A stretch of 64,000 nt of DNA from positions 744,001 through 808,000 of the forward strand of contig NZ_CWKH01000003.1 in assembly GCF_001245615.1 (NCBI RefSeq), read 5' to 3'. The stretch comes from Mycolicibacterium neworleansense. Its GTDB lineage: Bacteria; Actinomycetota; Actinomycetes; Mycobacteriales; Mycobacteriaceae. The notes under the pieces were generated by a model that did not search any database, was not told the DNA's origin, and worked only from the letters and a program-made list of their open reading frames with translations. The translations under genes and the position numbers were made by a program. Below are positions 47,930 through 54,606 of the stretch, one piece after another. How positions within the stretch are numbered: the first letter of the stretch is position 1; every line of letters begins with the position of its first letter.

Positions 47930-48178
47930 TCTCAGCCCCCGATCGCTGCGACAACTGTGAATGTCGTTGTCAATGAGGTTGATGTTACCGATCTGGCCAA
48001 TGTGGCGTCGGAGTCCGCTGATCCGTTCCCGGACGATGGCACCGATTTTCCTCAGACAACGGCCACCAACTCCTCAGTGAGTCCTGTCCCGCACCGTGCA
48101 CGCTGGCTGAAAGTTGTGACCGGTAAGGGAATTGACGCAGGCAGGGTGATCTCAACCGAATACCAGGAGGTGACTGCG

Positions 48179-49084
48179 ATGCCGATCGAGGAGCTGATCG
48201 ACAGGTACGCGACGGCAATGCCGGCGACGGCCTACGGATATCTGGCCGCGCTGGCCACGACCGTGATCTTCGCGGTGGTGTGGCGGATCGCGACGACGCC
48301 GCGTCGGCGTGCGGCCACCGAACCGATCAGCCCGACCGAGCTGGCGTTCCTCCGGTCCGACATCGCCCCGGTGGTGACCGCACTGGCGGGCCTGCGCGCC
48401 GCCGGGCGGATCACCGGCGACAGACGGGTGGACCACAGCGTGCGTAGCCCGGAGGCCGACCGGTTCACCACACAGGTGCTCGAACGGGTCGCCGCCGACA
48501 CACAGCACACTGTGCCCGGCCTGTACGCCGCATCCGAGGATGACCTGGCCGTCTTGGAGGAGGAACTGAGCCGGCGGGGCCTGGTGCGAACCCGGGCCGA
48601 ACGGGCCCGCATGCGTTGGGGCACGGCACCGTCGATCATCATGACGGCGATCGGTATCGCCTACGCCGTGTACCTGGCAACTCAGTTGTCTGATCGCCCC
48701 GAGGACGCGGTGCCCCTCGTGGCCGTGGTGATCGCCACCGTCCTGTACGGCGCAGTGGTGCTGCCACACCTGTTGGGGGTGAATCGGCTGACCCGCGCGG
48801 GCCGTCGTCTGCTGGCCGCCCGGCAGAACGAACTGGCCTACCTGGAGCCGGCGAAGCGACCCGCCTTCGACACCTACGGCCCGGCTGCGGTGGCGATGTC
48901 GGTGGCTCTGTTCGGTACCGGCGCCCTGTGGGCCGTGGACGCCGGCTACTCGACCTCGGTGCAACTGGCCGGGGACTCCTCCGGCGGATCCGACGGTGGC
49001 GGCTGCGGCGCCTCGTGTGGCGGCGACGGTGGTGGTGGCGGCGGCTGCGGTGGCTGTGGCGGGTGCGGAGGTTGCGGCGGATGA
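48179..49084 (+). CDS. TIGR04222-like membrane protein with Cys/Gly tail
   Basis: Protein of 301 residues. It has one N-terminal membrane segment (about 17-39), a soluble region, then membrane segments around 158-178, 184-206 and 243-264. The last 30 residues are almost only Gly and Cys (six Cys: GGGC, GASC, GGGC, then three GGC units). This layout matches TIGR04222 proteins, whose low-complexity Cys/Gly tails I recall beside DUF692 genes. The ATG has AGGAGG eight bases upstream. The stop overlaps the next ATG (ATGA). Confidence 0.85.
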   Translation: MPIEELIDRYATAMPATAYGYLAALATTVIFAVVWRIATTPRRRAATEPISPTELAFLRSDIAPVVTALAGLRAAGRITGDRRVDHSVRSPEADRFTTQVLERVAADTQHTVPGLYAASEDDLAVLEEELSRRGLVRTRAERARMRWGTAPSIIMTAIGIAYAVYLATQLSDRPEDAVPLVAVVIATVLYGAVVLPHLLGVNRLTRAGRRLLAARQNELAYLEPAKRPAFDTYGPAAVAMSVALFGTGALWAVDAGYSTSVQLAGDSSGGSDGGGCGASCGGDGGGGGGCGGCGGCGGCGG

Positions 49085-49947
49085 GCGCCTCGGACCGTAC
49101 CGTGCCCGCGCTGGGCGATGTGGGCATCGGGTGGCGACGCGAGATCGCCGGCGTGGTTGCCGATCTGCGGCCCGGGTTCTGCGAGGTGATCGCCGAGTCG
49201 ATGCCGATGCGTCGCCGTCGAGTCCACCCGGACCCGGCACTGGCGGAACTTGTCGCCCGCGGCGTCCCGGTCATCCCGCACGGTGTCGCACTCTCGCTGG
49301 GCGGTGCAGAACCCGTGCAGCCCAAGCGGGTCCGGCGGCTGGCGGCATGCGTACAGGCGCTCGGCGCTCCGCTGGTCAGCGAGCACATCGCCTTTGTCCG
49401 GGCCGGCGGGATCGAGGCCGGGCATCTGCTGCCGGTGCCCCGCACGCGGGAGGCACTCGACGTGCTGGCCGCCAACATCGGGCGCACCCGGCGCGAACTG
49501 CCGGTGCCACTGGCACTGGAGAACATCGCGTCGTTCGTGGAGTGGCCGGAGTCAGATCTGACCGAGTCGGAGTTCCTCACCGAGTTGGTGGAGCGCACCG
49601 GTGTGCTGCTCGTGCTCGACGTGGCCAACGTGTACGCCAATGCCCGCAACCGCGGCCGCGATCCGCTGCGGGAGTTGGCGCGGTTGCCGGTCGAGCAGGT
49701 GGCCTACAGCCACGTCGCGGGCGGCCGCGATGGCGAGGATTTCTACCATGACACCCACACGGAGCGGACGCCGGCGGAGGTGTTGGACCTGGTCACCGCG
49801 CTGCGGGAGCGGGTGGACACCCCGTTCATGCTGGAGCGTGACGGCCGGTTCCCGCCCGCCGCAGAGCTTTTCGACGAGCTCGACGCGATCGCCGCGGCGG
49901 CGGGAGCCGCGTCGATCACCCCCGACGCACGAAAGGTGTGGGCATGA
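49081..49947 (+). CDS. DUF692/MNIO-family multinuclear iron enzyme
   Basis: TIM-barrel protein of 288 residues of the MbnB/TglH/BufB superfamily, whose characterised members oxidatively modify cysteine in peptides using two or three iron ions. Candidate metal ligands are H67 (PHGVALSLGG), H102 (SEHIAF), E147/N148 (LENIASF), D180 and N183 (LDVANVY), H211 (YSHVAGG), D224/H226 (DTHT) and E252 (MLERDG). The usual second Asn of LDVNN is Ala, and the usual NHG is NRG. It overlaps genes on both sides. Confidence 0.93.
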   Translation: MSASDRTVPALGDVGIGWRREIAGVVADLRPGFCEVIAESMPMRRRRVHPDPALAELVARGVPVIPHGVALSLGGAEPVQPKRVRRLAACVQALGAPLVSEHIAFVRAGGIEAGHLLPVPRTREALDVLAANIGRTRRELPVPLALENIASFVEWPESDLTESEFLTELVERTGVLLVLDVANVYANARNRGRDPLRELARLPVEQVAYSHVAGGRDGEDFYHDTHTERTPAEVLDLVTALRERVDTPFMLERDGRFPPAAELFDELDAIAAAAGAASITPDARKVWA

Positions 49948-50159
49948 GTGAGACGTTGGCTCAGCGGCAAGCCGCTCTGGTCCGCGCCCTGGTGGCCGGT
50001 GGCACGGTACCGCCGGGCTTGGATCCGGCCGCGGTGGCCGCGGCCGGCGAGGTGTGCCGCCACAAGCGGGATGCGCACGTCGACGCTGTCAGGCGGCGCC
50101 GGTGGTCGCCGGATTACCGGCGCCGCCTGACCCGCATGACACGATGGTCCGATGACTGA
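49944..50159 (+). CDS. 71-aa protein, candidate partner of the MNIO enzyme
   Basis: Small basic protein beginning [20 protein letters not shown]. The N-terminal half resembles the helical start of DUF2063/BufC-MbnC partner proteins, but it is too short for a full partner domain. A conserved-looking Arg cluster ([15 protein letters not shown]) ends the chain. The ATG overlaps the DUF692 stop, and its own stop overlaps the L,D-transpeptidase start, which supports a real gene in one operon. The function is inferred from location only. Confidence 0.75.
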
Positions 50160-50973
50160 GTGGACGAGGGGCAGGCTTTTCCGCGCTTTGCGGGCAGCCG
50201 GGGCGGCCTCCATGGTGGGTTGTGCGTTGTTATTGGGCGCCGGTGCCGCACAAGCAGATCCGGCACCGTTCGAGCCGCCGAGGCTCGTCCCCGCCGACGG
50301 CTCGACCGTCGGTGTGGCCCAGCCGATCATCATCAACTTCCCCGGGCCGGTCGAGGACGCCGGTGCCACCGAGAACGCCATCCATGTCTCGTCGGTGCCG
50401 GAAGTTCCCGGCAAGTTCTACTGGATCACCCCGACGCAACTGCGTTGGCGTCCGCTGAGCTTCTGGCCCGCCCACACCTCGGTCACCGTCGATGCCGCGG
50501 GCACCGTGTCCAACTTCAACACCGGGGACACGCTGGTGGCCACGGCCAACGACACCACCCACCAACTGACCGTCACCCGCAACGGGACGGTGGAGAAAAC
50601 CATCCCGATGTCGATGGGCATGGCATCCGGCGGCCACCAGACTCCGAACGGCACCTTCTACGTTCAGGAGAAGATGCCCTCGGTGGTGATGGATTCGTCG
50701 ACCTATGGCGTCCCGGTCAACTCGCCCAACGGATACAAGTTGACGGTCGATCTGGCCGTCCGGTTCGACGACAGCGGCGACTTCGTCCACAGCGCTCCGT
50801 GGTCGGTTTCCGATCAGGGCAAGCGCAACGTCAGTCACGGCTGCATCAACATCAGCCCGGCCAACGCGAAGTGGTTCTTCGACAACTTCCGCCCCGGCGA
50901 TCCCATCATCGTGCAGAACTCCACCGGCGGTACCTACACCCGCTACGACGGCTCCAACGATTGGCAGATCTAG
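50152..50973 (+). CDS. L,D-transpeptidase (secreted)
   Basis: Protein of 273 residues. Signal peptide (residues about 10-34, ending GAAQA), an Ig-like domain (about 40-125) and a YkuD catalytic domain with HGCINIS near residues 228-234 holding the nucleophilic Cys. Such enzymes make 3-3 cross-links in mycobacterial peptidoglycan. It overlaps the 71-aa gene by 8 bp and so belongs to the DUF692 operon. It resembles LdtMt1/LdtMt3-type proteins by length. Confidence 0.95.
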
Positions 50974-51104: not shown

Positions 51105-52040
51105 TTAATCCCAGAACGGTGGGCGGCCTTGTTGAATCCACGTTTTCCAGGTTTGTTCCCAGGCTTGGGGGTCGATGCTGGGCAGGTTGGTGACGGAGAG
51201 GTTGGTCAGGTTGGGTGCGGTGAGCACGGGACGGGTGTCGGACAGGTTTTTGAGGTCGTCGATGATGAGGTCGGTTAGGTCGGTCAGCGCGCTCATGTCG
51301 GGGAGGTTGGTGACCTCGCGTAGGTGGTAGAGGTGTAGGTGGCGCAGGCTGGTGACTTGGGAGACGGGGCTGAGGTCGGACAATGCTCCAACTTTGAAGA
51401 ACGACAGTTTCTCCACCTGGGTGTCGGCCAGGGCGCTGATGTCGGTGATGCTGCCGCGGTTCATGTAGAAGGTGCGCAAGCCGGCCGGTAGGAAGTCGAG
51501 GCCGGGGAGTTTGCGGGCGTATCCCAGGCTCAAGGTGGTCAGGTTAGGCAGCGTTTTGAGGGTGTCGAGGTCGCGGACTTGGCCGTCGAGCATCAGATAG
51601 TCGAGCCCGGCGAGTTCCCCGATCGGCGCGGCTGATAGCCGTGCCGGGCTTTTGAAGATCTGCAGCCATGTGCAGGCCTTCAGGTGTTGCAGTCCGTCAA
51701 GGGATTTCAGATAGAACAGATTGCAGGCGAATCGCTGCAGGCTCGGGAAGAACCGCAGAAACTCCAGATCGGTGATCGGGCGCTCAACGAATGAGCGGGA
51801 ACTCCACTCTGGCGTTTCAAGCTGTGACACATAGACTTTTTTGTCGGGATAATCAGTGATGAATTCGGCGACTGTGCGGAAGTCGTCGTCGGTGAGGGGC
51901 TCATCGATCGCAACCCCTGGCGACTCCGGCGACAATGGCGCCAGCATCTCAGCCGTGAGCGGCGAGGAGACGTCGCGGTAGCTTTCCGTGCTGTCTGGAC
52001 GATGCTCGTTGCCCACCCGGGCTCCCTTCGACTGATGCAC
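51105..52040 (-). CDS. Leucine-rich-repeat protein, possible immunity factor
   Basis: Protein of 311 residues. After an unstructured N-terminus (about 75 residues) there are about eight degenerate leucine-rich repeats from residue 85 to 290 (LEFLRFFPSLQRFAC, LKSLDGLQHL, LDTLKTLPNLTTLSL, LTDLTDLIIDDLKNL). There is no signal peptide. It lies 98 bp downstream of a Hint-HNH toxin gene on the same strand, the usual position of an immunity gene. No known immunity motif is visible. Confidence 0.8.
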   Translation of the reverse strand: MHQSKGARVGNEHRPDSTESYRDVSSPLTAEMLAPLSPESPGVAIDEPLTDDDFRTVAEFITDYPDKKVYVSQLETPEWSSRSFVERPITDLEFLRFFPSLQRFACNLFYLKSLDGLQHLKACTWLQIFKSPARLSAAPIGELAGLDYLMLDGQVRDLDTLKTLPNLTTLSLGYARKLPGLDFLPAGLRTFYMNRGSITDISALADTQVEKLSFFKVGALSDLSPVSQVTSLRHLHLYHLREVTNLPDMSALTDLTDLIIDDLKNLSDTRPVLTAPNLTNLSVTNLPSIDPQAWEQTWKTWIQQGRPPFWD

Positions 52041-52137: not shown

Positions 52138-54606
52138 CTACTTCGGTTTGTTATGGTGCTTTTTGCTTTTTTTGTTTTTCTTCTTCTTTTTGTCTTTCTT
52201 CTTTTTCTTGTCAGCCTTTTTCTTGCCGTCCTTCTTTTTTCCACTGTCACGGGATTTGCCGGTGGCCGACGCCGTCTCTTGGGCTCGGTCGTTACGTGCT
52301 GCGGCTTGCGGACGAAGATTGGGTGAGTGGATCACACCGTCCGGCGGCTCACCGTGCTGTCGGACGTACTGCTGAATTATCCTTCTCGAGTCTCGGCCGA
52401 CATCTTCTTGGACGGCTGCCCATTCTTCGGGCGATTTGTCGCTCTTGCCGGCGGGGCCGTTGCATCGAGCACAGAGAATCTTGGTGTCTTCACCGTTCCT
52501 ACCGCCGGTGCCGCCCTGCGATTTCGGTTGGGTGTCGTGGTCGAACTGAGCACGGTTCGGCGGAATCTTGTCTCCCCGTACTGTCTTGCCTTCCTGGCGG
52601 TAGACCCGTTGGGCGCAGTGCGGATTTTCGCAGCGCAGGTTACCGTCGGGGCTCTTGGATACCCGGTCGGCGGTGACCTGGTCCTTGGTTTTCGGCGCGA
52701 TGTCCTTGCCGGTGGTATCGGGTTTTGGCTTAGCGGCGTCGGGAACCGGAAGGTCGGGGCCGGCTGGGCAGTTGTGGACCAGGACTGGGGCGGCTGGGGT
52801 GGTGACGTAGAAGGTGTGGGTGGTCTCGATGGTGAGGTCCCACATGTCAGCGTCACCGGCCACCGGGGTGGTCATCTCGACCTGTGCGACAACACCGTTG
52901 GGTGTGTAGAGGGCGTCGCCGGGCTGGAGGTCTTGGGCATCGGTCCAGCCGGGCCCATACGCCTGGGTGGGTGTCGTGGTGGCCGCGAGAGCACTGGCCG
53001 TGTTGTGGAGGCGGGTGGGGCTGTAGAACGGGTGGCCGCTGGTGGTGTTGATGACCGCAGAAACACCGGCAGTGTTGGTGATGGCCAGGTCGAGCAGGTC
53101 GGTGTCGTGGTTGACCAGCACCGCCTGCACAGTCTGCGGTCCGGACCGACCCGAGAAGGGGTCGGTGGACCACACCAGGTCACCGACGCCGAGTTGGCTG
53201 ATGGATCGACTGGTCCCATCGGCGAGCAGTACCTGCGTGTCCGGGGTGAACGACTGCCCCGCACACGGGATCTCAGCGGGCTTGGCCGCGGGCGGGGCAT
53301 TGGGCGATTTTGGCGAAACCCCTGGTGTCACTGGCGGTTTCGCGGTGCCGGCAGCTGCTACTTGATCGGCCAACTGGGCGGGTGGGGTGGGTGCGGTCTT
53401 GGCGACGTCCACGACATCGTCGGCGTGCTTGGCCAGTTGTTCGACGGCCAGCTCGGCGCCTTCCTTGACGACCTTTTTGGCCGCGCCCTGCGGGGTGACC
53501 ATCGATGCGGCGCCCAGCACGTCCGAGGCGATACCGAGGGCTTGGTTGTCGGGCAGTGCGGCCGCGGCGATGTCCACGGCGGCACTGGAGATGTTGACGG
53601 TGGCCGAGGCGATCATGGCCGCACCTGCCGGGCCACCGACACCGGTCACCGCCAACGCGACACCGCCCACCAGCATGGCCGATTCCAGCGGGTTCTCCTT
53701 GACGAACCCGCCCACGGCTTTCGCCCCCGAGACGGTGGCCGAGGCGGCGGTCTTGGCCATCGACATCCCGGTGTCAGCCAGTGAGCTGACGGTATCGGTA
53801 AACGAGTCAAGGAATCCTTGGGGCAGCGGTGCGCCGCCGGCACCACCCAGGTGCAGCGGCGGATCGACATAGACCGGCCACATGGTGTCGGGGCGGGGGT
53901 CGATGACCTCGGCCAACACATACAGCTGCGGGGCCAGCTGCTTGACCACATACGAACTCGGGACGAGTTTCCCGGTGGCGTCGCGGGTTTCGGCCGGAGA
54001 GAACATGCCGATCGTTTCGGCGGCTGGGGTCGCCCGATTGATGGTCAGATAGCCGTTGGTGTGGGCCAACATCACGGTGTCGGCCGGAGTCCGCACGAAG
54101 GTGGTCACCATCCGCGGCCCGGCCGGATCACCGATCCGGGCCACCGTGCGGATGCCGGTGGCGGTGTTCTCAGCCAACATGTCGAAGCCGGCACCGGCAT
54201 TCGGATACACGACCTGTCCACCCGGAGTGTGCTCGGCAGCTCCCAAACCACCCGGCAGCACGATCTGCACCGGACCGGCCGCTGTCTGCGAGGTCAGGCC
54301 GGCCACCGGCTGATCAGGTAAACCCGCGCGGCGCCGCTCGGGCGACACTTTCAGATCCGAGCCGACCGCCGATTCGGTGAACGCGCCGACCGCGGCCTCG
54401 GCGAACCCCTGCGCCGCTGACACCGTCCGCATCACCTGATCGGCCTGCCGCGACGGTGCCGGTGCGATCAGGTGCAGGCCGCCGACGGTGACCGCCACCG
54501 CGCACAGCACCGCCAGCCAGCGCACCGGCCACCTCAACCATATGATTTGCTGATGCTCGTGCAGGAAGTTTCCTGCGCCCAGTCTGCGGCGTCGGTGTCC
54601 ATGCAT
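52138..54606 (-). CDS. Polymorphic toxin: Hint domain plus HNH nuclease with Lys tail
   Basis: Protein of 822 residues. A single N-terminal membrane segment (residues about 28-48) is followed by a region of unclear fold (50-420). A Hint domain (about 452-615) starts CAGQSFTPDTQVLLADG and ends VLVHNC, with NTTSGHPF inside. An HNH-type nuclease (about 655-740) has RCENPHC, FDHDTQPKSQGG and ILCARCN motifs. The chain ends in about 35 residues that are mostly Lys, read from a pyrimidine-rich plus strand at 52140-52255. It is a predicted pretoxin whose nuclease is released by Hint cleavage. Confidence 0.88.
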   Translation of the reverse strand: MHGHRRRRLGAGNFLHEHQQIIWLRWPVRWLAVLCAVAVTVGGLHLIAPAPSRQADQVMRTVSAAQGFAEAAVGAFTESAVGSDLKVSPERRRAGLPDQPVAGLTSQTAAGPVQIVLPGGLGAAEHTPGGQVVYPNAGAGFDMLAENTATGIRTVARIGDPAGPRMVTTFVRTPADTVMLAHTNGYLTINRATPAAETIGMFSPAETRDATGKLVPSSYVVKQLAPQLYVLAEVIDPRPDTMWPVYVDPPLHLGGAGGAPLPQGFLDSFTDTVSSLADTGMSMAKTAASATVSGAKAVGGFVKENPLESAMLVGGVALAVTGVGGPAGAAMIASATVNISSAAVDIAAAALPDNQALGIASDVLGAASMVTPQGAAKKVVKEGAELAVEQLAKHADDVVDVAKTAPTPPAQLADQVAAAGTAKPPVTPGVSPKSPNAPPAAKPAEIPCAGQSFTPDTQVLLADGTSRSISQLGVGDLVWSTDPFSGRSGPQTVQAVLVNHDTDLLDLAITNTAGVSAVINTTSGHPFYSPTRLHNTASALAATTTPTQAYGPGWTDAQDLQPGDALYTPNGVVAQVEMTTPVAGDADMWDLTIETTHTFYVTTPAAPVLVHNCPAGPDLPVPDAAKPKPDTTGKDIAPKTKDQVTADRVSKSPDGNLRCENPHCAQRVYRQEGKTVRGDKIPPNRAQFDHDTQPKSQGGTGGRNGEDTKILCARCNGPAGKSDKSPEEWAAVQEDVGRDSRRIIQQYVRQHGEPPDGVIHSPNLRPQAAARNDRAQETASATGKSRDSGKKKDGKKKADKKKKKDKKKKKNKKSKKHHNKPK

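Follow-up and report, generated by a model that had tools for sequence, protein, structure and literature searches.

A three-gene MNIO cassette with a Gly/Cys-tailed membrane protein and a truncated partner, next to an L,D-transpeptidase gene in Mycolicibacterium neworleansense

In Mycolicibacterium neworleansense, a stretch of 64,000 nucleotides (contig NZ_CWKH01000003.1, positions 744,001 to 808,000 of the forward strand; hereafter the window) carries a unit of three genes, encoding a TIGR04222 membrane protein with a C-terminal tail rich in glycine and cysteine, an MNIO enzyme of the DUF692 family and a small protein; the L,D-transpeptidase (LDT) gene that follows is a local neighbour of this unit. 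The locus belongs to a known kind of MNIO cluster, of which it is a variant with a truncated partner. We propose that a self-contained cassette stands here beside a housekeeping-type LDT and that the MNIO, with the small partner as its helper, most likely targets the co-operonic membrane protein and oxidises cysteine residues of its disordered Gly/Cys tail. The product would be a membrane-tethered tail with modified cysteines (of the thiooxazole type, by analogy with bufferins), which perhaps faces the cytoplasm, where the enzyme is, and perhaps binds copper or another soft metal. The explanation as a whole, in which MNIO and partner modify the tail cysteines beside an unrelated LDT, has in our view a somewhat better than even chance of being right. 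Its parts differ in strength: the tail is probably the MNIO substrate, and bufferin-like chemistry, which rests on analogy, is put forward tentatively, as is a role in metal buffering, both at a little below even. Computation gave the gene set, its conservation, the partner family, the correlation between tail and MNIO, and the occurrence of LDT and cassette apart from each other. The features concerned are as follows.

48179..49084, + strand: TIGR04222 membrane protein, 301 aa (NCBIfam TIGR04222, 118.4 bits, cut-off 43)
48971..49081, + strand: Gly/Cys tail of this protein, residues 265-301, ending C-G-G at the stop codon; predicted local distance difference test score (pLDDT) <50
49081..49947, + strand: DUF692/MNIO enzyme, 288 aa (PF05114, 260.6 bits, cut-off 25)
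49944..50159, + strand: small protein, MNIO partner remnant, 71 aa (match to the partner-family profile)
50152..50973, + strand: LDT of the LdtMt1/LdtMt2 type, 273 aa (YkuD and Ig-like domains)

Gene set, conservation and partner

An earlier note on this DNA, made from the sequence, had described four genes that overlap end to start, the first encoding a TIGR04222 protein with a Cys/Gly tail. Both descriptions hold: successive open reading frames (ORFs) on the + strand of the window overlap by 4, 4 and 8 bp, the TIGR04222 domain scores well above its cut-off, and the last 50 residues of the protein contain 6 Cys and 24 Gly. The 288-aa enzyme belongs to PF05114 by a similarly wide margin, and its alignment with the solved DUF692 proteins 3bww and 8hci shows that most of the His/Glu/Asn/Asp motifs are retained; these motifs, particular residues of which we take to be metal ligands, are invariant in 6/6 mycobacterial copies. 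The gene order resembles that of the bufferin system (BufA-BufB-BufC), with substrate, MNIO and partner in this sequence, and among the NCBIfam equivalogs the window MNIO is nearest to BufB, whose model (NF050167) it matches at 181.2 bits, below the 310 bits required for membership. In contrast to bufferins, the candidate substrate is an integral membrane protein and not a signal-peptide-bearing peptide, and the partner lacks the DUF2063 signature of the bufferin partner. For bufferins, an absorbance near 305 nm is reported (PMC12452194).

A closer counterpart is provided by the TIGR04222-MNIO clusters described by Antoine et al. in 2025 (PMC12452194), who regard TIGR04222 proteins as putative MNIO substrates and propose the tail as the substrate. 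The window, in which a Cys-tail TIGR04222 gene adjoins an MNIO gene, is such a cluster and shares with the published ones the C-terminal Gly/Ser/Cys tail, the position of the TIGR04222 gene (mostly before the MNIO gene) and the occurrence mostly in Actinomycetota. It differs in two respects: the published tails are predicted to be periplasmic and many of the clusters are described as partner-less, whereas here a partner frame is found at 39/39 places (see below) and part of the evidence points to the cytoplasm. The earlier note knew of no described function for this combination, which still stands for the function, whereas the combination of TIGR04222 and MNIO itself had been described in the 2025 paper. 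According to the same source, 490 of 1372 TIGR04222 genomes have no MNIO gene. Among the matches listed in a literature search from 2022 on, covering titles and the starts of abstracts, we found no paper on MNIO in mycobacteria.

The three genes recur as a set. By MNIO alone, with titled genomes scanned using a mycobacterial MNIO alignment, 26 related loci were picked (L198-L223; 17 mycobacterial, many presumably from the M. fortuitum group, 8 from Tsukamurella and 1 from Micromonosporaceae), and the order TIGR04222-MNIO-small protein is kept in 26/26. Because the loci were chosen by MNIO alone, this recurrence is not due to chance; the set holds only loci that retain one of two peptide patterns, so that 26/26 concerns close relatives. 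The suggested association of the MNIO with the Cys/Gly-tailed membrane protein is thereby upheld, all 26 relatives carrying both as well as the small gene. In a genus sample of 118 genomes, which overlaps with the relatives (L208/G021, L217/G049, L210/G109), an MNIO occurs in 10 and a TIGR04222 protein above cut-off in at least 6, and all 6 TIGR04222 matches adjoin an MNIO; the remaining four MNIOs are of other types (37% identity in G066, about 45% in G050, G088 and G092). A class sample of 246 actinobacterial genomes contains 57 MNIO places, 39 of which have a TIGR04222 protein within 5 kb on the same strand, and an MNIO is found near 44 of 80 TIGR04222 places. This pairing used 80 TIGR04222 rows, above cut-off alone or together with neighbours, and 57 MNIO rows; excluded were TIGR04222 rows of lower score, the second parts of split matches and two surplus fragments of a single MNIO. 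The TIGR04222 counts in the genus and class samples are lower bounds, with up to 22 and up to 11 first-look candidates scored per genome, respectively. A profile of the matched domains, run over 6 kb on the MNIO strand, detected no TIGR04222-like frame at the 18 unpaired MNIO places, nor did the same profile at L027, L038-L040 and L197. A plasmid-borne cassette was considered for Tsukamurella 'plasmid 20' (H1) and not used, as this record carries metH, mshC and dapA and looks chromosomal. Two records of Tsukamurella tyrosinosolvens NCTC13231, 'plasmid 20' (L196) and 'plasmid 17' (L197), contain housekeeping genes (e.g. metH, mshC, dapA and dapC) and are probably chromosomal pieces.

The 71-aa protein matches no Pfam or NCBIfam family above cut-off. 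On the evidence of sequence profiles it is a two-helix, N-terminal remnant of an actinobacterial MNIO partner family that resembles PME-type 2. A first partner profile hidden Markov model (HMM) was built from 24 full-length partners, 23 of them from the class sample, with loci of the window's genus and of Tsukamurella excluded; it matched residues 3-49 of the 71-aa protein (E 3.8e-12, 42.4 bits), which correspond to helices 1 and 2 in the model of the longer partner, with 1/960 shuffles at E ≤ 0.01 as a control, and it placed a family member near 50/57 MNIO places of the class sample. A second HMM, built from 11 partners of TIGR04222-free loci, matched the 71-aa protein at E 5.1e-9 (Z set to 10,000) and 27/27 small proteins of the window and its relatives, and found a partner frame at 39/39 TIGR04222-paired MNIO places (worst E 4.6e-9). 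Across the class sample the conserved protein either is encoded after the MNIO or forms a C-terminal fusion with it: MNIOs with a C-terminal extension of at least 60 aa, by which fusions were counted (a profile-based count of 33 is not trusted), occur at 28/57 places and at 23/39 of the TIGR04222-paired ones. In mycobacterial and Tsukamurella cassettes the partner is cut to about 60-76 aa, comprising the first two helices.

PME-type 2 partners, which include TglI and of which examples of 158 and 115 aa are given from Micromonospora and Saccharothrix (PMC12452194), are, like the window protein, short helical proteins encoded right after the MNIO and lacking the Pfam DUF2063 signature; the mycobacterial and Tsukamurella form differs in its truncation. 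A family search detected no family above cut-off, DUF2063 (PF09836) included, in the 71-aa protein and five other actinobacterial partners, and the same search recovered the DUF2063 partner of genome G337 at 6.5e-22. Homology to DUF2063 was also sought by profile comparison with five DUF2063 partners; the match was co-linear but weak (probability 4%, E 0.0098) and is not claimed. For the long partner of L221 (Micromonosporaceae), a structure model (mean pLDDT 69.9, predicted template modelling score 0.36) gave no PDB match at E ≤ 10 in a fold search. In the parts of PMC12452194 consulted, partners are reported for at least 10% of TIGR04222-MNIO clusters and many clusters are said to be partner-less; the truncated partner may be among the unassigned 'adjamnio-V' small proteins of that paper. 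What these profiles would add is a partner family member at all 39 sampled TIGR04222-paired MNIO places, often fused or truncated, and an answer, at the level of sequence, to the question raised by that paper of whether clusters with no visible partner are functional.

The Gly/Cys tail and the side of the membrane it faces

The C-G-G end of the tail is kept in 26/26 relatives, and the tail cysteines track the presence of an MNIO. In the class sample, Gly/Ser/Cys-rich TIGR04222 tails have at least 3 Cys in 30/30 MNIO-adjacent cases and in 5/15 cases that are not adjacent; the 30/30 leaves aside G290, whose tail lies beside an MNIO with 0 Cys and just under the Gly/Ser limit, and 13 MNIO-paired tails that are not Gly-rich, and the tail thresholds, for TIGR04222 tails and Cys-tail ORFs alike, were set after the class-sample tails had been viewed. 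The other 10 non-adjacent tails consist mostly of Gly, Asp and Ser, with few or no Cys. By Fisher's test, which ignores relatedness, the presence of at least 3 Cys in MNIO-paired versus unpaired tails gives p = 9e-7, and Cys tails set against an MNIO anywhere in the genome (33/38 vs 2/7) give p = 0.003. Among the five unpaired Cys tails, those of G213, G306 and G224 have an MNIO elsewhere in the genome, that of G193 lies near a contig end and that of G292 looks like a reading-frame artefact. Viewed from the enzyme, 32/57 MNIO places have an ORF for a membrane-anchored Cys-tail protein on their strand at a distance of up to 2.5 kb; 1 such ORF lies elsewhere in the MNIO stretches, and control sequence totalling 296,100 strand-bases contains 0.

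New here are membrane proteins with a single helix and a tail of this kind, present at five MNIO loci that lack TIGR04222 (L138, L141, L149, L152 and, from Tsukamurella, L197). Encoded nearby on the same strand, these proteins of about 83-104 aa (starts chosen by eye) consist of one membrane helix, an Arg-rich stretch and a Gly/Cys tail, those of L138 and L141 being alike; four of the five, run against Pfam and NCBIfam, matched no family above cut-off, and no description of them was found in the parts of PMC12452194 consulted. Judged from these sequences, the part common to the TIGR04222 and single-helix proteins is the tail and not the anchor. The single-helix proteins would also be much easier to express as substrates than the multi-helix protein. 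At L150 (G346) three and at L117 (G241) two Cys-tail membrane ORFs surround one MNIO, which suggests several substrates per enzyme. The earlier note had envisaged a membrane-anchored, cysteine-modified structure made together with 3-3 cross-linking of the cell wall; the tail, whose cysteines track the MNIO, is the best candidate substrate, and the coupling to cross-linking is not supported.

The AlphaFold2 model of the TIGR04222 protein (mean pLDDT 79.6) has long hydrophobic helices at 16-39, 150-169 and 174-199, a helical soluble part between helices 1 and 2, three short helices at residues 235-260 and a disordered tail at 265-301; a fold search with it gave no PDB match at E ≤ 0.001. On the side that bears the soluble part and the segment following helix 3, 9-14 Lys and Arg residues lie close to the membrane, versus 0-3 on the other side, in 27/27 sequences (with flanks of unequal length). 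Positively charged flanks face the cytoplasm (the positive-inside rule), and the charge bias therefore places the soluble part and the post-helix-3 stretch in the cytoplasm. The tail would then be cytoplasmic too, unless segment 235-253 crosses the membrane. This fourth hydrophobic segment has a Kyte-Doolittle value below 1.6 in 28/35 Cys-tail homologues (median 1.11), a set that includes partial matches (e.g. G193, G206, G292) in which the last segment may not be comparable, and such low hydrophobicity would speak against crossing in the family at large. The single-helix proteins likewise point to a cytoplasmic tail, their Arg-rich stretch directly after the helix predicting a C-terminus on the inside. 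Taken together, a cytoplasmic tail seems to us about evenly balanced with its opposite; this holds for the window as well, whose own family, f1, is the least clear.

The alternative, which follows the published prediction, is a modified tail exposed at the outer face, where it would buffer metal in the manner of bufferins while tethered to the membrane, its modification preceding translocation. We regard this as a serious possibility, though of distinctly less than even probability. In its favour, PMC12452194 predicts periplasmic Cys tails and large extracytoplasmic domains, and bufferins act outside; moreover, the fourth segment reaches 1.63-2.46 in all class-sample members of f1, the family of the window (4/4), and the hydrophobicity of segment 235-253 in the window matches that of helix 2 (1.63 vs 1.59), so that a fourth helix may exist and a periplasmic tail is quite possible in f1, which weighs against the cytoplasmic placement. 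On the other side, the low values in most Cys-tail homologues, the three short helices of the model and the Arg-rich stretches of the single-helix proteins argue for the inside, and with the positive charges after helix 3 in the model the tail would be outside only if the fourth segment crosses. The large extracytoplasmic domains of the published prediction are hard to reconcile with the charges. The published periplasmic prediction is now in clear conflict with part of the topology evidence, a conflict that is testable.

MNIO places without a cysteine tail

Several observations weigh against the tail cysteines as the target of the enzyme. In the class sample, 25/57 MNIO places have no Cys tail within 2.5 kb. 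Thirteen of these belong to family f19 (Streptomyces-like, at a guess) and consist of MNIO and partner, ten of them with a tail-less TIGR04222 protein nearby; five more (G290, G213, G224-C1, G154 and G306-C116) also have a partner, and at G290 the TIGR04222 protein stands beside the MNIO with no tail cysteine at all; the remaining seven lack a partner. In the genus sample, G050, G088 and G092 carry another type of MNIO, which in L038 and L040 (G050 and G088) is followed by a partner and then by a 56-aa single-helix protein without Cys; that of L038 shows a weak, sub-cut-off similarity (6e-4) to the YxzE-like bacteriocin family. Any model must allow for MNIO function without tail cysteines at these places. 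At L153 (G255), where the MNIO has no usual partner, a 106-aa protein encoded downstream resembles, by eye, a Nif11-type precursor and has a C-terminal CSC motif.

A rival explanation is that the enzyme acts elsewhere than on the tail, for instance on non-Cys residues of small membrane proteins or on another protein, with the tail cysteines free to bind metal or to form disulfides. The 18 class-sample places with MNIO and partner and no nearby Cys tail, the Cys-less single-helix cluster of L038 and L040, and the known modification of Asp, Asn or Phe by other MNIOs (PMC12452194) all fit this explanation. It leaves unaccounted for that the tail cysteines track the MNIO and that the tail is the part common to TIGR04222 and single-helix proteins, and we consider it unlikely; modification of the tail cysteines remains the preferred reading.

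The transpeptidase and the surroundings of the cassette

The LDT is a housekeeping-type enzyme that only stands behind the cassette. Its YkuD (85.7 bits, cut-off 23.4) and Big_10 (84.4 bits) domains, the SHGCIN sequence containing what we take to be the catalytic SHGC motif, and its nearest solved structures, LdtMt2 (221.9 bits to chain 3tur) and LdtMt1, with which it shares the YkuD and Ig-like domains, reveal nothing unusual. An LDT adjoins the cassette in 12/26 relatives, that is, in 12/17 mycobacterial and 0/9 other loci. The overlap between cassette and LDT is not conserved: among the 12 adjacent relatives it measures 8 bp in two (L205 and L217) and 4 bp in one (L200), and the remaining 9 have a gap of 21-39 bp. 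In 3/6 carriers of the genus sample (G077, G087, G109), the stretch retrieved contains the cassette and neither LDT nor DUF218 gene. Some kind of LDT-like gene is present in 118/118 genomes of that sample, and a further 10 genomes have LDT homologues of 71-82% identity without a cassette in the retrieved stretch. In G020 the LDT (89% identity) is retained beside the same upstream genes in the same order, at a site without DUF218, TIGR04222, MNIO and small gene; this genome (100% complete) has no match to MNIO, nor to TIGR04222 in the candidates that were scored, and the TIGR04222 profile found none in its LDT stretch. The LDT thus occurs at the same site without the cassette, whether the cassette was lost or never present. 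A 'natural deletion' of the cassette in G020 was considered and withdrawn: the LDT protein tree places L198 outside G020 (support 94/75, not starred), which hints at loss, and the LDT DNA tree with outgroup allows the cassette carriers to form one clade without G020 (support 43/0), so that the two do not separate loss from original absence; an oxidoreductase tree was rooted at midpoint only.

The idea of the earlier note that cassette and LDT form one functional cell-wall unit, which the same-strand adjacency in 12/17 mycobacterial relatives and the 8-bp overlap in the window might favour, is very improbable in view of the 5/17 mycobacterial and 9/9 other relatives in which no LDT lies beside the cassette, the overlap retained in 3/12, the LDT homologues without cassette and the G020 site, and a coupling to 3-3 cross-linking is rejected on this distribution. 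The note had held that a transpeptidase in this place only here would tell against its proposal; the arrangement is restricted to one mycobacterial group and not to one genome. Copper inhibits L,D-transpeptidases, which by itself gives no reason for a link between LDT and cassette. A misleading lead is thereby removed, and there is no reason to expect a connection with 3-3 cross-linking.

The control region of the cassette contains a conserved element.

48114..48125, + strand: promoter-proximal element with core TTGTGACCGGTA, 65 bp upstream of the first gene

The pattern TTG[TG]GACCGGTA is found 60-80 bp before the first gene in 17/18 mycobacterial copies including the window (with a variant in L217), among them five copies without LDT, and in 0/8 Tsukamurella and 0/1 Micromonosporaceae copies; a longer pattern, AANTTGTGACCGGTA, occurs once in the whole genome when up to one mismatch is allowed. 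With an element that is conserved also in copies without LDT and, in its longer form, present once in the window's genome, the cassette appears to carry its own promoter region. Patterns for IdeR, Zur, CsoR and RicR boxes had no match upstream of the cassette, and a scan for sigma-70 promoters found none. In L200, L201 and L203, about 3.4 kb separate DUF218 from the TIGR04222 gene of the cassette, and in L200 this insert contains, by eye, Nudix-, nicotinamide phosphoribosyltransferase- and phosphoribosyl-pyrophosphate synthetase-like genes. Further along the window, 52138-54606 (- strand) encodes a protein of 822 aa that contains a pretoxin HINT domain and, by eye, a C-terminal region rich in Cys and reminiscent of nucleases, and that has a Lys-rich end; 51105-52040 (- strand) beside it encodes a leucine-rich-repeat protein. 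From its sequence the former resembles an interbacterial polymorphic toxin, and its neighbour might provide immunity.

Of the new points, the partner at every sampled TIGR04222-paired place, the exchangeable anchors and the topology conflict are the most useful, and all three are testable. A wider generalisation, which we consider doubtful, would be that one class of actinobacterial MNIO products is never exported: exchangeable anchors, either TIGR04222 or unrelated single-helix proteins, would hold a Gly/Cys tail at the cytoplasmic face, where its cysteines would become, through MNIO and a minimal partner, a metal or redox ligand bound to the surface. Should the tail prove to be modified, the reach of MNIO chemistry would include fixed membrane proteins besides exported peptides.

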